Origin: Bacteroidota bacterium
Lineage (GTDB): Bacteria > Bacteroidota > Bacteroidia > Chitinophagales > Chitinophagaceae
Reading direction: 5' to 3'
NCBI GenBank assembly: GCA_029555415.1
Contig: JAKPSI010000037.1
Span: 1 to 64,000, forward strand
Length of the DNA stretch: 64,000 nt
Shown here: piece by piece, positions 50,179-60,094 of the stretch
How positions within the stretch are numbered: the first letter of the stretch is position 1
Layout: every line of letters begins with the position of its first letter
Made by a program: the position numbers and the translations under genes
Notes under the pieces: generated by a model
What the model saw: the letters and a program-made list of their open reading frames with translations, nothing else
Told to the model about the DNA's origin: nothing
The model's database searches: none

Positions 50179-51477
50179 CTATTTAAACTTCAGGTCAACC
50201 GAGATGACATTCGACACCAAATTAGTCGTTTGTGAGTAGTGCCCGTAACGCAGTTCCAGCGCGGCAAGGGATTGCATCAGTACACCTTTGGGTGGCGCGA
50301 GGCGGAGACCCATGCCCCAGGCATGACTGGTGAAAGCGGCCAGTGCGTAATTGCTGGTGTAATATTCATCATTCAGTGTATGGGTAGCATAAGGCGCGAA
50401 ATACTTCGCGGCCGTTTGCCTGTAGAAGCGGTAATAGGGAGAAAGCGAGAAGAATGGTGTGAGTTTGATAGCGGTTTCCAGACTGGCCGTATGGGAACGA
50501 AGTCCCCAGCTATCGAGATAATAACGATAAAAAGCGCGGAGGATCAGCTTATCCCCAACGAAATAATTCATGCGTAATCCTATAGGCAATTTGAAACGAC
50601 TGGAAGGCAGAGTTTCGATCGTATCTTTTCCTGTATTGAGGTATACCCGGTGGAAAGGCAGCCCCAGATAACCTTTCATGTACACAAGATCCATGGCGAT
50701 GCTGGCCTGCATACGCTCATTGATCACTTGTGCGAAAGAGAATGAGGCGCTGATGGTATTTCGCGACTTCACGATATCAGGCATTTGTCCGGAAACCGTC
50801 GTGCTCCCACCATTATGAAAGACCAGGGCCCGGCGGTGTCCGCTGGCGGTGGTGATATACACGACACTATCGGTTGGCGCAACAGTGGTAACGACCAGTG
50901 GCGGATTGAATTCCGCTGGATTGATCATGTGGATCTTATCGAGGAAGGCGCTGACCTTGACACTGAATTCGCCGTTGTTACGCGTTTTCTGTGATACCGA
51001 TCCGTTGAAACCAAGTGAATTATAGTATTGTGATTCGTGTGAGAAATACAGACCAAGTCCGACCTCCGAACCTTTGATCTTATTCTCCCGGCTCCAGTCG
51101 AGCGTCGGATACAAACGGGTGCCGTTATTCCGGGCATGTCCATTGGAATCGATATAACCCTGGGATGCGGCGGTGTGATGATCATACCCCATTCCGAATG
51201 TGAAATTATTCTTGCGATGCGCGGAATCAAGGAATGCGAGTTTGAGTTCGATAGAATTGGAGAAATCGGTCACATCGCCATTCCCTTTCGGATCGGTACG
51301 ACCGCCCATGACGGCTGACTTATCAGCCTTTTGCGTGTAATAACTGGAAACGATGCTCACCTCTTCTGTCCGCAGTTTACGGGACTTGTAAGCTGTCGTA
51401 TCCTTTGGCGCCTGCTGAGAGAAAGCGTTCAGGATGACCAGGTACATTCCGACAACAGTGAGACATATTTTTTTCAT
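50179..51477 (-). CDS. DUF3570-family outer-membrane protein
   Basis: 432 residues. Signal peptide to about FSQQ; the rest alternates amphipathic beta strands (NFTFGMGYDHHTAASQGYID, LGLYFSHESQYYNSLGFNG, FKLPIGLRMNYFVGDKLIL, LRAFYRYYLDSWG), as expected of a beta barrel, and matches DUF3570. It is always or nearly always found with a DUF4266 lipoprotein, as here (23 bases between the genes). The pair is often near FAD:protein FMN transferase and thioredoxin genes, absent here. Function unknown. Confidence 0.85.
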   Translation of the reverse strand: MKKICLTVVGMYLVILNAFSQQAPKDTTAYKSRKLRTEEVSIVSSYYTQKADKSAVMGGRTDPKGNGDVTDFSNSIELKLAFLDSAHRKNNFTFGMGYDHHTAASQGYIDSNGHARNNGTRLYPTLDWSRENKIKGSEVGLGLYFSHESQYYNSLGFNGSVSQKTRNNGEFSVKVSAFLDKIHMINPAEFNPPLVVTTVAPTDSVVYITTASGHRRALVFHNGGSTTVSGQMPDIVKSRNTISASFSFAQVINERMQASIAMDLVYMKGYLGLPFHRVYLNTGKDTIETLPSSRFKLPIGLRMNYFVGDKLILRAFYRYYLDSWGLRSHTASLETAIKLTPFFSLSPYYRFYRQTAAKYFAPYATHTLNDEYYTSNYALAAFTSHAWGMGLRLAPPKGVLMQSLAALELRYGHYSQTTNLVSNVISVDLKFK

Positions 51478-51964: not shown

Positions 51965-54900
51965 TCATCTGTATACTATGACTGTCTTTACAGCGATCTG
52001 TTTACCGTTATGGTCACGTACTTCGACCATGAAATAACCGCTTGACATGATGCCTTCTTTCAGCATATTCACTTCCATGCTGGTATAAGGTGCGCTGGTA
52101 GCATATTTGCGCTGATACACCAGGCGACCGCGGTCATTGTATATACTCAGGGTGACTTGCTCACCGGCTGCATTGTAGAACCGTACACTGAATTCACCGT
52201 TATTCGGGTTCGGGTAAGCGAACAGTTTGGTGGATTCAGAAGCGGTGATCTGCAACTCTGCGGATGCGGATGTACAGCCATTTCCGTCAGTATATACCAC
52301 TTTGTAAGTACCGGCATTGTCTACGGTCAGTCCGTCGATGACATCTCCAGTTACACCTGACATCAGTTCTCCGTTCCTGTACCATTTATAAGTACCGCCC
52401 GAGATGGAAACATTCGCGGTGAGTGTCAGGAACTGGCCGGGTGTCATGGCCGGTGAACCGGAAGCGGTGATGGTCACAAACGGATTCGGATTCACGTAAA
52501 CGGTCGCGATGTTACTGATGGCATTGTTGCACAATCCGATCACAGTAACACGGTACGTATTGGTGTTCATGTTCAGGGTAGCATTGTTCACGGTATAGAC
52601 CGCATTGTTGCTGCCGGAAATATCTGACCAGCCTGTTCCGTTCCATGCCTGCCACAGGTAGCTCACCACGTTGGTGGAAGCCACGTTGAAGGAAGCGGCG
52701 GTACCGGCACATACTGTTGTATTCACAGGCTGTGTGCTGATCGCGGGTATCTGACCGTCCAGTACCGTTACGGTAAAGGAACAGGTACTGATATTACCGG
52801 ATGCATCCGTTACACGATGGGTAACAGTGGTTACACCCAGCGGGAAGGCTGAACCGCTTGCCAGGCCTGCGGTACGGACGAGGGTAAAGCCGGGACAATT
52901 ATCCGTTGCGGTCACGGTATAGTTCACCACTTTGGTGCAGGCACCTGTGGCGGTTACGGTGATGTTGGACGGACATGTGATCACGGGCAGTTCTGTATCA
53001 CGCACGGTGACGGTGAATGAACAGGTCACGACTGCGCAAACATTCGTTGCCGTAACAGTTACTGTAGTGGTTCCGATCGGGAACACACTGCCGGATGGCA
53101 TGGAGTAACTGACGGTCGGTGCAGGTGCGCCGGTCACTGTTGCAGGTGCGTAAGTCACGGTGGCTCCGCAAACACCCGGATCATTCACTACGTTGATATT
53201 CGCCGGGCAAGTGATGGTCGGTGTAGCGTTCACCGTGATCGTAAAGGTCTTCGAAGGTCCGCTGCAGGATACACCTCCGTTGGTGAATGTCGGTGTAACG
53301 GTGATGGTAGCCACTTGCGGTGTATTGGTATTATTCACGGCTGCGAAAGACGCGATGTTACCGGTTCCGCTTGCGGCGAGACCGATCGATGTATTCGTAT
53401 TGGTCCAGCTGTAAGTGGTCGTACCCCCTGTATTCGATGTAGTATACGTTACTGCGGTCGGTGCTCCGTTACATTCCACCAGGTCAGCGGGCTGATCCAC
53501 TTGTCCTGTTGGGTTCACAGTGATCGTAAAGGTCTGTGCAGGTCCGCTGCAGGTCACACCGGCATTGGTATAAGCAGGTGTAACAGTGATGGTAGCGGTA
53601 ACCGGTGCTGTTCCACTGTTGGTTGCAGTGAAGGAAGCGATATCACCATTGCCACTGGCCGCGAGACCGATCGAAGTATTGCTGTTGGTCCAGCTGTACG
53701 CTGTGGTACCGCCGGTATTGTTCGTCGTAAAGCTGACTGCATTCGTTGTACTGCCATTACATTTTACCTGATTGGCCGGAACATTCACTTGTGCGGTCGG
53801 GTTTACGGTGATCGTAAAGGTCACGGATGGTCCTGAACAGGTCACACCGCCATTTGTGAAAGTTGGGGTCACTGTGATCGTAGCCACTTGCGGTGTTGTA
53901 CCGGTATTGATCGCAGTAAAGGAGTTGATCCATCCACCAGCTGCGCCACTGGCTGCCAGACCAATACTTGTATTGTCATTGGTCCAAGTGCAATAGGTAG
54001 CACCGCCTGAAACGATCGTTCCGAAATTAATGGTCGGTACGACATCTGAATTACATACCACTTTATTGGTGATCGGGTTCACTTGTGCAGTAGGATTCAC
54101 GGTAATGGTGAAGGTCTGCGAAGGACCTGTACAATTAGCTCCTGAAGGAGGAATACCAGGCTCGGCTCCTTCCTGTACACCGGGTGCAGCATTGCTGAAT
54201 GTCGGTGTAACGGTGATCGTAGCCGTTACCGGTGAGTTACCACTGTTGGTTGCGGTGAAAGATGCGATATTACCGGTTCCACTGGCTGCGAGGCCGATGC
54301 TGGTATTATCGTTCGTCCATGCGTAAGTGGTGGTTCCGCCGGAATTGACCGTTGTGAAATTCACGGCTGATGTAAGCGCACTGTTACAGATCACCTGATC
54401 GGCGGGGTCATTCACCTGGCCGGTCGGGTTCACGATGATCGTGAATGTTTTCGCAGGACCTGAACAGCTGACGCCTGCGTTGGTGAATGTTGGTGTAACA
54501 ACGATCGTTGCGGTGACCGGTGATGTGCCGGTATTCACTGCTGTGAAGGATGCGATGTTACCGGTACCATTGGCTGCGAGGCCGATGGTCGTATTATCAT
54601 TCGTCCAGGCGTAAGTGGTCGTACCACCTGTATTCACAGTTGAGAAATTCGTAGCTGCTGCCGCGGTATTATTACATACTGTAAAGAAAGCCGGCTGATT
54701 CACCTGAGCAGCGGGGTTCACTGTGATAGTGAAGGTCTGTGCCGTACCACTGCAGGATGTTGCTCCATTCGTGAAGGTCGGTGTAACGGTGATCGTGGCG
54801 GTCACAGGCGCTGTACCGGTATTGGTTGCGGTGAAAGCCGCGATATTACCGGTTCCGCTGGCTGCAAGGCCTATAGAAGTTGTATTATTCGTCCAGGCGT

Positions 54901-57900
54901 AAGTTGTTGTTCCACCTGTATTATCGGTTGCGAAATTGACCGCTGTGGTCGTTGCACTGTTGCAAAGTACCTGGTCGGTCGGATCATTCACCTGACCGGA
55001 CGGATTCACCGTGATGGTGAAAGTTTTGGATGCACCGGTACAGGTCACACCACCAAAAGTAAAGGAAGGTGTAACCGTGATGTTCGCGGTAACAGGTGCG
55101 GTTCCTGTATTCACAGCTGTGAAAGAAGCGATGTCGCCTGTTCCACTGGCTGCGAGACCGATCGAAGTATTATCATTGGTCCAGCTGTAGTCGAATATAC
55201 CACCACCGCCGCCAACATATTGCAGTGCATTCTTCATGATCTTTGCACCATCTGATGCCGGATCCCAGAAGTCACTTCTTGAATCTTTTGAAGGCGGGAA
55301 GAATCCGAGGTCAACGCGTTTCGCATGGGCAGCTCCTACGTCATCACGAGCTGTGATCAGATACCGGCCATCGTTCCAGTCTGCCACACTGTAAGCACCA
55401 GGTGCCAACGATGTTGAAGTGGACCTGTAGCTTGACGTACCGCCATTGAATGAAGTAATCCCATTCATCAATTGGTGGGCAGGAAGCCAAACGGTGCCCA
55501 GTGTTTGTGTGGACCCCTGGGTCTGTCCGGCCGGGACCATTACCTGATAAGTGCTTGTATTGATCGCACCGCCAACAGGTACTGAAGCCGTTGAGAAAAC
55601 AGCCATTACCAATCCTCCGCCACCGTCCACATATGCGGCCAGATTATTTCCCAAAAGTGTTGAATTTGCATAACCGGTCTCTGCATAAAACAGAACGGAC
55701 TGGTATTCCTGTAACTGAGCCAGCGTGGGCGTTACATTGGCTGCATTGATCACATCAATTGTACTGAAAGCTCCGGTAGCCATGATCTTTGCCTTTACTT
55801 CATTCACCCAGCTGAATGCGTCAGCAGCGAGGATCAGTACTTTATTTCCGAAACTGACCGGTGCTGAAGATGCATTATTACATATCACCTGTGCTGACGG
55901 TTGATTCACACTCGGTGTCGGATTCACGGTGATCGTGAAAGAAGTGGAAGTTCCTGCACAACCTGTGCCACCATTGGTAAATGAGGGCGTAACGGTGATG
56001 GTTGCAACAACAGGACTGGCGGTGCTGTTGGTAGCAGTGAAAGAAGCGATGTCACCAGTACCACTTGCACTCAGACCGATCGAAGTATTGTTATTGGTCC
56101 ATGTATAAGTCGTGGTTCCGCCTGTATTATTCGAACTGAAATTGATCGCAGGTGAGGATGAACCAGCGCAAAGCACTGCATCGATCACATTGTTCACCTG
56201 TCCTTTCGGATTTACGATGATCGTAAAGGTCTGTATTGAGCCGCCACAACCAACAGATGCATTATTGAAAGTAGGCACTACTGTTATGGTTGCGGTAACC
56301 GGAGCCGTACCGGCGTTGGTAGCTGTGAAAGCGGATATATTTCCGGTTCCGTTCGCTGCCAGACCGACCGATGTGTTATCATTTGACCAGCTGTACAATG
56401 TTGTACCACCAGTATTAGTTGAAGCGAAATTGACCGCAGTAGTGTTCGCATTGTTGCAGATCACCTGGTCGGCGGGGTCGTTCACTTGACCGGTCGGGTT
56501 GACTGTGATCGTAAATGTCTTCGTTGCACCGGAACAGCTTACACCTGCGTTGGTGTATGTCGGCGTTACAACGATCGTTGCAACGACCGGTGCAGTACCA
56601 CTGTTCACGGCTGTGAAGGATGCGATATTGCCACTGCCACTGGCGGCAAGACCGATCGATGTTGCATTATTCGTCCAGGTGTAAGTTGTTGTACCACCCG
56701 TATTCGTTGTAGCGAAATTCACTGAAACGGATGAATTATTACAAAGCACCTGTGAAGCTGGCTGGCTTACCTGTCCTGCCGGATTCACCGTAATGGTGAA
56801 TGTTTGAGCTGTACCGCTGCAGGATGTTCCACCGTTCGTGAAAGTAGGTGTTACTGTAATGGTCGCTGTAACAGGAGCCGTACCGGCATTGGTAGCGGTG
56901 AAGGCCGATATATTACCGGTTCCGCTGGCTGCAAGGCCGATCGAAGTTGTATTATTCGTCCAGGCGTAAGTGGTTGTACCACCTGTGTTATTGGTTGCGA
57001 AATTGACCGCCGTGATAGCAGTACTGTTGCAAACCACCTGGTCGGCAGGATCATTCACCTGGCCGCCCGGGTTCACGGTAATGGTGAACGTTTTCGTTGC
57101 ACCAGCTGTACTTACACCTGCATTGGTGAATGTGGGCGTTACGATGATCGTTGCAACAACAGGGGCTGATCCGCTGTTCACTGTTGTGAAGGAGGCGATA
57201 TTCCCATTGCCACTGGCTGCAAGACCGATCGTTGTATTGTTGTTGGTCCAACTGTAAGTAGTCGTACCACCTGTATTGGTCGTAGCAAAGTTCACTGAAA
57301 CAGAACCATTATTACAGACGACCTGAGAAGCGGGCTGATTCAGTTGTCCGGCAGGGTTAACGGTAATAGTGAATGTTTGAGCTGTTCCGCTGCAGGATGT
57401 TGCGCCGTTCGTGAATGTTGGCGTAACTGTAATAGTCGCTGTAACAGGAGCCGTACCGGCGTTGGTAGCGGTGAATGCAGAAATATTTCCGGTTCCACTT
57501 GCTGCGAGGCCGATCGATGTCGTATTATTCGTCCAGGCGTAAGTTGTGGTTCCGCCTGTATTATTTGATGTGAAATTGACTGCGGTTGTGGTTCCGCCGT
57601 TACTTACCACCTGGTCGGCGGGGTCATTCACTTGTCCGGTCGGATTCACGGTGATCGTAAAAGTCTTTGAAGCACCATTACATGTCACGCCACCACTTGT
57701 ATAAGAAGGCGTAACGGTTATAGTTGCTGTAACCGGTGCAGTACCTGTATTCACTGCGGTAAAAGAAGGAACATCTCCGGTTCCACTGGCGGCCAGACCA
57801 ATGGAAGGATTACTGTTTGTCCAGGTATAATCAAATATACCACCGCCGCCGCCTACATATTGCAGCGCATTTTTCATGATGTTGGCACCAGAAGAAGAAG

Positions 57901-60094
57901 GTATCCAACCGCCGCCATTAAATCCGTCATTGGATGGCGGGAACAAACCCAGATCAACACGTTTTACATGTGATGCACCTACATCATCCTTCGCGGTGAT
58001 CAGGAAATTGCCATCATTCCAGTCTGCCACACGGTAGCTGCCCGCAGTCAGGGTTGAAGATGTAGTTCTGTAACTAGCATTGCCGTCAAAGCTGGTCACT
58101 CCTGTCATTAATTGGTGTGTCGGAAGATGTACTGTACCTAATGTCATACCATAATTGTTAGTATGACCAGAAGGCACTATGACCTGATAAGAAGCTGTAT
58201 TGAAATTCCCCCCGATAGGCAAACCGCCAGTCGCGAAAACTGCGCAGACCACACCACCACCACCATCAACATAAGCGGCAAGGTTATTTCCGGAAGTTGT
58301 CGGATCGAGGTAACTGTTATCGGACCATGTCATCACCGCCTGGTATTGTTGCAATTGTGCAAGGGTCGGTGTAGTTGAGTTGGCGTACATGATATCGATC
58401 TGGCTGAAGGCACCAGTTGCAAGCAATTTGGCTTTCACATCATCGATCCAGCTGGGCTGATCCGCTGCATATAACAATACTTTTCCGCCGAAGCTAACTG
58501 TACTGGATGCGCTGTTATTGCATACAACCTGATCAGCTGGCTGATTCACGGAGGGTGTAGGATTCACTGTAATTGTAAAAGTGACCGGTGTACCTGCGCA
58601 ACTTGTACCCCCGTTTGAATAAGTAGGTGTAACGGTGATCGTAGCCACTACAGGTATTGCGGTAGTGTTCGTTGCCGTAAAAGATGCGATATTACCGGAT
58701 CCGCTGGCAGCAAGGCCGATCGATGTTTTATTGTTTGTCCACGCATAAGTCGTTGTGCTGCCTGTATTATTCGTACTGAAATTAACTGCTGCGCTTGATG
58801 CACCATCGCAGAAGATCTGATTGCTCACACTGTTGACCTGGCCTTTCGGATTCACTGTGATCGTGAAAGTCTGGGGTGTACCGCTGCAGGATACTCCTCC
58901 GTTCGTGAACGTTGGTGTAACGGTTATCGTTGCGGTTACAGGGGCCGTGCCACTGTTCGTTGCGGTGAAGGAAGAAATATTCCCGCTGCCACTGGCAGCC
59001 AGCCCGATGGCCGTATTATTATTTGTCCATGCATATGTTGTAGTTCCGCCGCTATTACCCGTTGTAAAATTGACGGCCGAAGTTGAAGCGTTATGGCAGA
59101 CCACCTGATCGGCCGGATCATTCACCTGACCGGAAGGATTCACAGCAATTGTCGTGGATCCCGATGTACCGTTACAGGTCACACCTCCATTTGTATAAGA
59201 AGGCGCGATGTTGATCGTTGCAGTGACCGGCGAGGTACCGCTGTTCAGCGCTGTGAAAGATGATATGTCCCCAGAACCGCTTGCAGAAAGGCCTATACTT
59301 GTAGTGTTATTCGTCCAGTTGAAGACCGTTCCTGATACAGCGCCTGTGAATGAAAGCAGGTTCGTTCCGCTTCCGTTGCATTTGACCTGGCTTGAAACTC
59401 CGTTCACCGTAGGGATCGGATTAACCGTAACAGTTGTGGAAGCACAACCAACACTGAATACACAGTTATTGAAATTCCGTGCATAATATGTAGTGGTAGT
59501 AGAAGGGTTGACGGAAATTGGGTTTCCTGTACCAACCAATGTACCTCCGCAACTGCCAGAATACCAGTAAACAGTTCCTACCGCACCAGTAGCAGTGAGA
59601 GAAGTACTGGAACCATTACAGATCACCGGGGAAGTTGCACTGGCTGCTGTGGGATCGGCAGGAGCAGAAGGATTATACAGGACGGTCGCGTTCAGCCCAG
59701 TACTGGTGACACTCAGGTCAGTAGTGAAGCCTACGGTGATCGTTTGACTGAAATTACCGGTGAAGCAGAATGTACCGGAACCAAAATAGGTAGCCAATAC
59801 CGTACCGCCTGTACCTGTTCCATCATAGATCCTGATGAAATCACAGCAACTCTCAGTATTATATGAACCGGAGATCTGTACCCTGTTACCGGTCGTTACA
59901 TTAATTACTGTGTATCCGTTCGCATAGTCGGAATAAGTAGCTCCGCATCCGGCGTGGGTGCAGAGTGTACCGTTCGAATTCATCGAATTACTTCCGGCAT
60001 AAGGAATGAGTGTTTGCGAAATTGCCGTTAACGTGAACAGCATCGTGATGAACACTCCCGTAGTAGCTTTAAGCAGTGGGTAAACTTTTTTCAT
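51965..60094 (-). CDS. Giant T9SS-secreted multidomain repeat protein
   Basis: 2709 residues. Signal peptide to about AISQ (1-27); CUB-like domain (about 30-140, NTESCCDFIRIYDGTGTGG); one Ig-like domain (145-226). Then 17 copies of a ~96-residue Ig-like unit (about 227-2290) with the frame QVNDPADQVVCN, TTTYAWTNNTTSIGLAASG, TATITVTPTFTNG and TFTITVNP. Units 4 and 11 are each split by a ~215-residue alpha/beta domain (VLLYAADQPSWIDDVKAKLL). Next come two HYR domains (TCPANINVVND, TCPSNITVTA), two more Ig-like domains and a type A sorting domain (LFAYPNPNNGEFSVRFYN to the final KTVIVYR). Likely a cell-surface adhesin or matrix protein exported by the type IX system. Confidence 0.93.
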   Translation of the reverse strand: MKKVYPLLKATTGVFITMLFTLTAISQTLIPYAGSNSMNSNGTLCTHAGCGATYSDYANGYTVINVTTGNRVQISGSYNTESCCDFIRIYDGTGTGGTVLATYFGSGTFCFTGNFSQTITVGFTTDLSVTSTGLNATVLYNPSAPADPTAASATSPVICNGSSTSLTATGAVGTVYWYSGSCGGTLVGTGNPISVNPSTTTTYYARNFNNCVFSVGCASTTVTVNPIPTVNGVSSQVKCNGSGTNLLSFTGAVSGTVFNWTNNTTSIGLSASGSGDISSFTALNSGTSPVTATINIAPSYTNGGVTCNGTSGSTTIAVNPSGQVNDPADQVVCHNASTSAVNFTTGNSGGTTTYAWTNNNTAIGLAASGSGNISSFTATNSGTAPVTATITVTPTFTNGGVSCSGTPQTFTITVNPKGQVNSVSNQIFCDGASSAAVNFSTNNTGSTTTYAWTNNKTSIGLAASGSGNIASFTATNTTAIPVVATITVTPTYSNGGTSCAGTPVTFTITVNPTPSVNQPADQVVCNNSASSTVSFGGKVLLYAADQPSWIDDVKAKLLATGAFSQIDIMYANSTTPTLAQLQQYQAVMTWSDNSYLDPTTSGNNLAAYVDGGGGVVCAVFATGGLPIGGNFNTASYQVIVPSGHTNNYGMTLGTVHLPTHQLMTGVTSFDGNASYRTTSSTLTAGSYRVADWNDGNFLITAKDDVGASHVKRVDLGLFPPSNDGFNGGGWIPSSSGANIMKNALQYVGGGGGIFDYTWTNSNPSIGLAASGTGDVPSFTAVNTGTAPVTATITVTPSYTSGGVTCNGASKTFTITVNPTGQVNDPADQVVSNGGTTTAVNFTSNNTGGTTTYAWTNNTTSIGLAASGTGNISAFTATNAGTAPVTATITVTPTFTNGATSCSGTAQTFTITVNPAGQLNQPASQVVCNNGSVSVNFATTNTGGTTTYSWTNNNTTIGLAASGNGNIASFTTVNSGSAPVVATIIVTPTFTNAGVSTAGATKTFTITVNPGGQVNDPADQVVCNSTAITAVNFATNNTGGTTTYAWTNNTTSIGLAASGTGNISAFTATNAGTAPVTATITVTPTFTNGGTSCSGTAQTFTITVNPAGQVSQPASQVLCNNSSVSVNFATTNTGGTTTYTWTNNATSIGLAASGSGNIASFTAVNSGTAPVVATIVVTPTYTNAGVSCSGATKTFTITVNPTGQVNDPADQVICNNANTTAVNFASTNTGGTTLYSWSNDNTSVGLAANGTGNISAFTATNAGTAPVTATITVVPTFNNASVGCGGSIQTFTIIVNPKGQVNNVIDAVLCAGSSSPAINFSSNNTGGTTTYTWTNNNTSIGLSASGTGDIASFTATNSTASPVVATITVTPSFTNGGTGCAGTSTSFTITVNPTPSVNQPSAQVICNNASSAPVSFGNKVLILAADAFSWVNEVKAKIMATGAFSTIDVINAANVTPTLAQLQEYQSVLFYAETGYANSTLLGNNLAAYVDGGGGLVMAVFSTASVPVGGAINTSTYQVMVPAGQTQGSTQTLGTVWLPAHQLMNGITSFNGGTSSYRSTSTSLAPGAYSVADWNDGRYLITARDDVGAAHAKRVDLGFFPPSKDSRSDFWDPASDGAKIMKNALQYVGGGGGIFDYSWTNDNTSIGLAASGTGDIASFTAVNTGTAPVTANITVTPSFTFGGVTCTGASKTFTITVNPSGQVNDPTDQVLCNSATTTAVNFATDNTGGTTTYAWTNNTTSIGLAASGTGNIAAFTATNTGTAPVTATITVTPTFTNGATSCSGTAQTFTITVNPAAQVNQPAFFTVCNNTAAAATNFSTVNTGGTTTYAWTNDNTTIGLAANGTGNIASFTAVNTGTSPVTATIVVTPTFTNAGVSCSGPAKTFTIIVNPTGQVNDPADQVICNSALTSAVNFTTVNSGGTTTYAWTNDNTSIGLAASGTGNIASFTATNSGNSPVTATITVTPTFSNAAPGVQEGAEPGIPPSGANCTGPSQTFTITVNPTAQVNPITNKVVCNSDVVPTINFGTIVSGGATYCTWTNDNTSIGLAASGAAGGWINSFTAINTGTTPQVATITVTPTFTNGGVTCSGPSVTFTITVNPTAQVNVPANQVKCNGSTTNAVSFTTNNTGGTTAYSWTNSNTSIGLAASGNGDIASFTATNSGTAPVTATITVTPAYTNAGVTCSGPAQTFTITVNPTGQVDQPADLVECNGAPTAVTYTTSNTGGTTTYSWTNTNTSIGLAASGTGNIASFAAVNNTNTPQVATITVTPTFTNGGVSCSGPSKTFTITVNATPTITCPANINVVNDPGVCGATVTYAPATVTGAPAPTVSYSMPSGSVFPIGTTTVTVTATNVCAVVTCSFTVTVRDTELPVITCPSNITVTATGACTKVVNYTVTATDNCPGFTLVRTAGLASGSAFPLGVTTVTHRVTDASGNISTCSFTVTVLDGQIPAISTQPVNTTVCAGTAASFNVASTNVVSYLWQAWNGTGWSDISGSNNAVYTVNNATLNMNTNTYRVTVIGLCNNAISNIATVYVNPNPFVTITASGSPAMTPGQFLTLTANVSISGGTYKWYRNGELMSGVTGDVIDGLTVDNAGTYKVVYTDGNGCTSASAELQITASESTKLFAYPNPNNGEFSVRFYNAAGEQVTLSIYNDRGRLVYQRKYATSAPYTSMEVNMLKEGIMSSGYFMVEVRDHNGKQIAVKTVIVYR
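53226..59416 (-). repeat. 17 tandem ~288-bp coding repeats in the giant gene
   Basis: In-frame units encode the Ig-like repeats. Two ~650-bp insertions (about 57840-58490 and 55195-55855) interrupt units 4 and 11 at the same point. Units 3-5 resemble units 10-12, so a block of seven units (about 2.6 kb) has been duplicated. Within the blocks, units of NDPADQ and NQPA types partly alternate. Unit 14 has an extra loop (GVQEGAEPGIPPSGA). Confidence 0.9.

Follow-up and report, generated by a model that had tools for sequence, protein, structure and literature searches.

A giant protein with a T9SS sorting domain carries predicted ThuA-fold modules within two of its 17 Ig-like units

Why do two of 17 consecutive Ig-like units in a giant protein of a Bacteroidota bacterium carry a long extra stretch at the same point, what kind of domain is this stretch, and what might it do there? 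The gene lies on the minus strand of the window (i.e. the whole 64,000-nucleotide stretch of DNA that was analysed) at 51965-60094, as a single open reading frame with a translation of 2709 aa, and all coordinates below refer to this strand. The protein starts with a signal peptide of about 27 aa (60014-60094; recognised by eye from the sequence). This is followed by a weak CUB-like N-terminal domain (59681-59962; PF23062 with E 0.00031 and PF00431 with E 0.065, both under the cut-off) and by an Ig_7 domain (PF19081; 59417-59662), for which the whole protein gave E 5.4e-11 and 43.1 bits in two stretches, the best at aa 145-226. The array of 17 PKD_5-type Ig-like units (53228-59422) was delimited by unit boundaries, the unit alignment and PF19406. 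Two stretches of HYR domain (52757-53227; PF02494, E 4.9e-20, best at aa 2366-2444, with the extent of the first set by eye) and a T9SS type A C-terminal sorting domain (51977-52216) complete the protein. The whole protein exceeded the PKD_5 cut-off of 25 bits (46 bits, nine stretches), and its single units scored just under it in a six-frame search (21-24 bits). In total, 11 Pfam families matched the protein at E <= 1; they include a weak Ig_2 match and no RTX family.

The sorting domain scored over the cut-off with both PF18962 (36.5 bits, cut-off 27) and TIGR04183 (24.7 bits, cut-off 23), and the genome as a whole contains 56 such matches, 54 of them over the cut-off and this gene included. 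Hence, export of the 2709-aa protein by the T9SS can reasonably be inferred. Nine neighbouring proteins were tested (an SSF transporter, an FMN oxidoreductase, DUF3570, 3-dmu-9_3-mt, LuxE, UbiA, a Beta-lactamase-family protein, a peroxidase and DUF4236), and these gave no sign of a polysaccharide-utilisation locus or a shared pathway. Downstream of the giant gene, the first large frame encountered is that of the DUF3570 protein (50179-51477, minus strand).

The initial annotation had described 17 Ig-like repeats, of which units 4 and 11 would be split after VSFG by about 215 residues, and this description held. The units span aa 225-2289, and 15 of them are 95-111 aa long. Units 4 (aa 512-817) and 11 (aa 1392-1697) each measure 306 aa because each holds 218 extra residues. 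Insert 1 (aa 537-754; 57833-58486) and insert 2 (aa 1417-1634; 55193-55846) both start directly behind VSFG. According to the unit alignment and the unit profile, they separate an N-terminal segment of 25 aa from a C-terminal segment of 63 aa, at 58487-58561 and 57644-57832 in unit 4 and at 55847-55921 and 55004-55192 in unit 11. With the insert removed, both units come to 88 aa, 8 short of a 96-aa unit. A different and much smaller insertion was seen in unit 14, where 15 residues near the end (APGVQEGAEPGIPPS; 54143-54187, minus strand) are missing from the other 16 units.

Since Pfam was uninformative on the two constructs of the window, we built a profile from the 15 uninterrupted units and used it to score the parts of units 4 and 11. 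The joined halves of unit 4 scored 115.0 bits, compared with 99.4 bits for the C-terminal and 24.2 bits for the N-terminal half alone. The corresponding values for unit 11 were 116.2, 104.2 and 20.4 bits, and the inserts alone scored below zero. Cysteine is kept in both halves of units 4 and 11, and it occurs in both halves of 13 of the 15 whole units. Judged from these sequence comparisons, units 4 and 11 qualify as Ig-like domains interrupted by a folded module, and the split unit may well still close as an Ig fold. A model of unit 4 had a mean pLDDT of 81.1 and left Ig residues 1-25 unplaced (pLDDT < 50), probably because its alignment contained only two rows across this N-terminal segment. 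A fold search with this model was filled by GATase-like chains. For the unit profile itself no solved structure gave a credible match, the best being a densovirus capsid protein (E 0.0019).

The insert was confidently predicted to adopt a ThuA/class I glutamine-amidotransferase-like fold, in line with the Rossmann/GATase-like appearance noted in the initial annotation. An AlphaFold2 model of insert 1, based on an alignment of 17 sequences, reached a pLDDT of 91.9 and a pTM of 0.91, and depicts a folded module instead of a linker; the same fold would apply to insert 2, going by insert 1. ThuA/GATase-like chains were at the top of both fold searches. With Foldseek, the best matches were 2gk3 (E 8.8e-8) and the ThuA-like 4jqs (E 5.7e-7). 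With VIA-align, the model reached Z 20.3 both to 3rht, a GATase1-like protein of Planctomyces, and to 2gk3, and Z 18.9 to the ThuA-like 1t0b (rmsd 2.7 over 195).

At the sequence level these similarities are faint. The insert shares its fold with the ThuA family (PF06283; PDB 1T0B and 4JQS, the latter with Z 15.8), but its Pfam matches to this family are weak, at 18.5 and 15.8 bits for the two inserts against a cut-off of 33.4 bits. Among the 17 aligned relatives, 12 had ThuA matches at E <= 1 (best 0.00027), and one protein with three copies summed to 40.1 bits with no single stretch passing. A search of the PDB with the insert profile found no sequence relative (best E 0.11) and did not list BT1761 (8aa2) at E <= 10; a two-sequence insert profile found no PDB relative either.

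Similarity of fold is not proof of function for the insert. Class I glutamine amidotransferases and GIFT domains (IFT52, OST48/Wbp1) belong to the same fold class as the insert, which differs from them in having no conserved Cys or Glu and in being secreted and located within Ig units. We counted residues over 70 copies of the module, in the columns present in insert 1 only. The highest Cys column contained Cys in 8 of the 70 copies, and no column reached Glu in 25. Hence, the amidotransferase triad is absent, and amidotransferase chemistry, one form of the enzyme role that the initial annotation had allowed for, is unlikely. Several other residues are strongly conserved, namely one His column (64/70), Asp74 (68/70), Tyr100 (68/70) and Asn206 (65/70). 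Numbered along the insert, conserved residues include Trp156 and His124 as well as Tyr100. Together with the fold, these residues could fit an active enzyme of the ThuA/GATase superfamily (an amidase, or a sugar-modifying or esterase-like enzyme) tethered to the stalk, and ThuA-like proteins are usually viewed in connection with sugar metabolism. However, the classical GATase triad is missing, and 18 matches that lie in six three-copy open reading frames of one Planctomycetota-labelled genome look more like binding modules. We consider a tethered enzyme unlikely.

A second alternative is that the insert serves in protein-protein docking or as a structural spacer, as IFT52 and OST48 do in complexes, and binds no sugar. 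VIA-align gave Z 15.7 to the N-terminal domain of IFT52, and the Foldseek matches include chains of the human OST and translocon, which we take to be OST48. Against docking, the free-standing secreted copies of the module, some of which have PEP-CTERM-like or dockerin-like tails by eye, suggest an independent extracellular role. Moreover, sugar binding itself has been put forward for GIFT domains in one report (PMC7226087). A docking or spacer role thus seems improbable to us. The insert is instead probably a ligand-binding module, and sugar binding by it is plausible.

To what extent is this module found elsewhere? A search with the single sequence, in 98 relatives and the own genome, yielded the copies of the window only, so a profile was needed to find relatives. 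A scan of genome contigs revealed eight loci, with the labels Planctomycetota, Phycisphaerales, Opitutia, Verrucomicrobia, Acidobacteria, Chthoniobacterales and Planctomyces. At E <= 1e-3, the profile matched 6 of the 394 genomes drawn from the window's family and 11 of the 395 drawn from its phylum, where both counts include the own genome and three genomes are merely marginal. At E <= 1e-10, matches were found in 8 of 395 genomes of the window's class and 2 of 198 of its order, as well as in 11 of 246 genomes of the phylum of G812, 6 of 197 of the class of G756 and 1 of 4 of the class of G433; these counts include the centre genomes, and the draws overlap. The PKD_5 host unit is common, with matches at E <= 1e-3 in 27 of 59 genomes, own included, 23 of them over the cut-off.

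The search for the insert in other proteins provided the set of 70 copies (domain E < 1e-6, duplicates removed), of which 31 are from Bacteroidota and 39 from elsewhere. Left out of this set were G397, G585 and G796, with weak matches (E 2e-4 to 7e-4), and L059, as well as L098, which was found later. The two inserts of the window come out as sisters (100/99) in a tree built from the 70 copies. Next to them (99/94) stand two relatives from the same family, namely an N-terminal domain and a free-standing secreted protein of 261 aa that is 62% identical to insert 2. Several deep branches of the tree are weak.

The 18 module matches in the Planctomycetota-labelled genome G812 are arranged as six open reading frames with three tandem copies each (e.g. 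L003:2836-7416), and behind the copies comes a C-terminal segment with a dockerin-like appearance by eye. With respect to an origin in a phage or plasmid, the module had no phage match, and its one plasmid match was partial, to a Nostoc PEP-CTERM protein with 30% identity. Among 53 candidate stretches, one locus was from a contig catalogued as viral, and a 234-aa frame related to the module lies on a contig of a viral collection (L098:4911-5612).

By inspection of the flanks, 23 of the 31 Bacteroidota copies are enclosed by a host domain of Ig-like type: two in PKD_5 (those of the window), two in HYR and 19 in HYDIN/BACON-like domains. The remaining eight stand behind an apparent signal peptide. 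Outside the Bacteroidota, none of the 39 copies looked inserted; they are arranged in tandem or are preceded by a signal peptide, a linker or another domain. Relatives of the insert are free-standing or inside one of three kinds of Ig-like host. On the tree, host type changed at least seven times, and a single clade of all inserted copies was disfavoured (p-AU 0.01). Several separate insertions into host domains are therefore likely, short of proof since the deep branches are weak and the tree has no direction of change.

Joining the flanks on either side of the module provides a further view of these hosts. We searched Pfam with 20 of the 23 constructs, omitting L039_1380, L040_1531 and L040_1076, in the last of which the profile boundary shortened the module. 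In 11 of the 18 non-window constructs (one HYR and ten HYDIN/BACON-like) the best host match spans the junction, and nine of these 11 are over the cut-off. In the other seven, the best host match does not run across the junction; a linker fills much of the N-terminal flank in five of them by eye, and one of the seven, L024, reaches 26.0 bits across the junction (cut-off 25.5) when its linker is also removed. All five flank pairs that were also scored apart scored higher when joined, as in the HYR example with 57.3 bits joined against 22.4 and 38.5 bits apart. In HYDIN-type hosts, six C-terminal flanks match alone (three behind ThuA-fold modules and three behind other inserts), and in all six the residue directly behind the insert falls, by extrapolation, on position 45-46 of the 100 profile positions; one further C-terminal flank gave no match alone.

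It is quite doubtful that, in units 4 and 11, the 25 residues before the insert are merely a linker, with the module between two partial units and not within a closed Ig domain, as their low pLDDT in the unit-4 model might suggest, given that this segment matches the unit profile by itself (24.2 and 20.4 bits) and retains the unit's Cys, that the joined halves have the top score, and that a HYR domain elsewhere regains full coverage (profile 1-81/81) once the insert is omitted. The domain-in-domain arrangement of the initial annotation thus gains from the unit-profile scores and from the relatives in other hosts, whereas the unit-4 model, with its N-terminal Ig segment unplaced, does not speak for it.

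Two proteins with HYDIN-type hosts (L041:5984-13219 and L042:5511-12848, minus strand) contain other modules that seem to share the HYDIN/BACON-like slot with the ThuA-fold module. Cleaved_Adhesin (cut-off 21.4) matched L042 with 44.4 bits in two stretches and L041 with 21.2 bits, just under the cut-off, and a propeller-like segment is visible by eye between HYDIN-type halves in both. When the flanks of the other modules in L042 were joined, a host match spanned the junction at two of three places (24.1 and 34.5 bits, one under and one over the cut-off of 25), the third place did not gain by joining (27.8 versus 27.7), and none of the three N-terminal halves matched alone.

We favour, by a modest lean, a reading in which the ThuA-fold modules are ligand-binding and probably glycan-binding heads, displayed sideways on a T9SS-secreted Ig stalk. 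A stand-alone domain of ThuA/GATase fold would first have entered a PKD_5 Ig-like unit at a loop; the split unit would then have been duplicated along with neighbouring units. After export by the T9SS, the Ig units of the 2709-aa protein would form a long stalk, presumably attached to the cell surface, from which each split unit would push its ThuA-fold module sideways, thereby giving one molecule two lateral binding heads. The module would lack amidotransferase activity and bind a ligand, most likely a polysaccharide. A stalk with two lateral glycan-binding heads is the likeliest reading because it has two precedents, namely split domains in RTX adhesins and a levan-binding domain of ThuA fold.

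The Ig-like split domains of RTX adhesins serve to hold ligand-binding domains out from a stalk (PMC12077191, PMC10865825). As far as these reports describe them, the T1SS adhesins FrhA, AhLap and MpIBP resemble the 2709-aa protein in that a module is set into an Ig-like domain within a long stalk of repeats; they project it sideways, and the same geometry may hold here. In contrast, their modules are of the beta-sandwich, RTX-roll or vWFA type and their export is by the T1SS, whereas the 2709-aa protein combines a PKD_5 host and a ThuA-fold module with a T9SS C-terminus in place of RTX repeats and a type I secretion signal. Ligand binding is shown for the sugar-binding modules of RTX adhesins and is a proposal for the ThuA-fold insert.

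The second precedent is the surface glycan-binding protein of the levan utilisome, which in its published description comprises two Ig-like domains along with a levan-binding one; its authors found the latter to resemble the ThuA-like 1T0B, and two Trp residues matter for levan binding (PMC7618045). This protein, SGBPlev/BT1761 of Bacteroides (PDB 8AA2), is likewise from Bacteroidota and likewise combines Ig-like domains with an extracellular ThuA-fold domain, to which the insert model aligned with Z 14.9 (8aa2_G residues 182-438, rmsd 3.1 over 194); the fold is alike, with no match in the profile search of PDB sequences. In SGBPlev/BT1761, however, the ThuA-fold domain is C-terminal rather than within an Ig unit, and the protein is a surface lipoprotein of a PUL, whereas the 2709-aa protein is a T9SS substrate by its tail. 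Both display by split domains and the fold itself are already known; we found no report in the open-access literature of such a module inside Ig-like units or T9SS stalks.

The relatives point to a wider reading, to which we give slightly less than even credence. Bacteroidota may possess a 'socket' system in which unrelated Ig-like stalk domains (PKD_5, HYR and HYDIN/BACON-like) each offer one preferred loop to interchangeable modules. The glycan-binding ThuA-fold module would have been plugged in independently several times, and the slot of L042, and by likeness that of L041, would also hold Cleaved_Adhesin-like and propeller-like modules. The system would be a separately arisen T9SS counterpart of RTX split domains. 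Related modules in two further kinds of stalk repeat do suggest a plug-in display of binding domains on the cell surface.

If the reading of the inserts as lateral binding heads is true, the ligand-binding heads of very long T9SS surface proteins could be recognised from sequence by an interrupted Ig-like unit, much as split domains already reveal them in RTX adhesins. Furthermore, binding would be the role, in several phyla, of a ThuA-fold domain that lacks the amidotransferase Cys. The insert of 218 aa is a compact construct for testing this binding role.

The two split units are part of a repetition within the array. Units 3-5 (aa 416-913; 57356-58849) match units 10-12 (54716-56209), as the initial annotation had seen, with identities of 73% for units 3/10, 82% for 4/11 and 89% for 5/12, although unit 5 is marginally nearer to unit 7 (91%) than to unit 12. 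Corrected for the mean similarity of the units, this is the strongest three-unit run at an offset of at least 2, a strength that was reached when the units were permuted in 6 of 5000 cases. The match fades beyond these units: pair 6/13 is weaker (residual 6.6), pair 7/14 shows nothing (0.6), and pairs 8/15 and 9/16 have 61 and 67% identity. The duplicated block is therefore about 1.5 kb long (units 3-5, ~1494 bp), and the 2.6 kb that had been proposed for it corresponds to the spacing of the insert copies (880 aa, 2640 bp). The two inserts are 62% identical as proteins and 62.4% as DNA (406/651), and NG86 gave no dS estimate for them, which we read as saturation. Units 5-6 and 7-8 (56498-57643, minus strand) look like a separate two-unit duplication, with identities of 91 and 85%.
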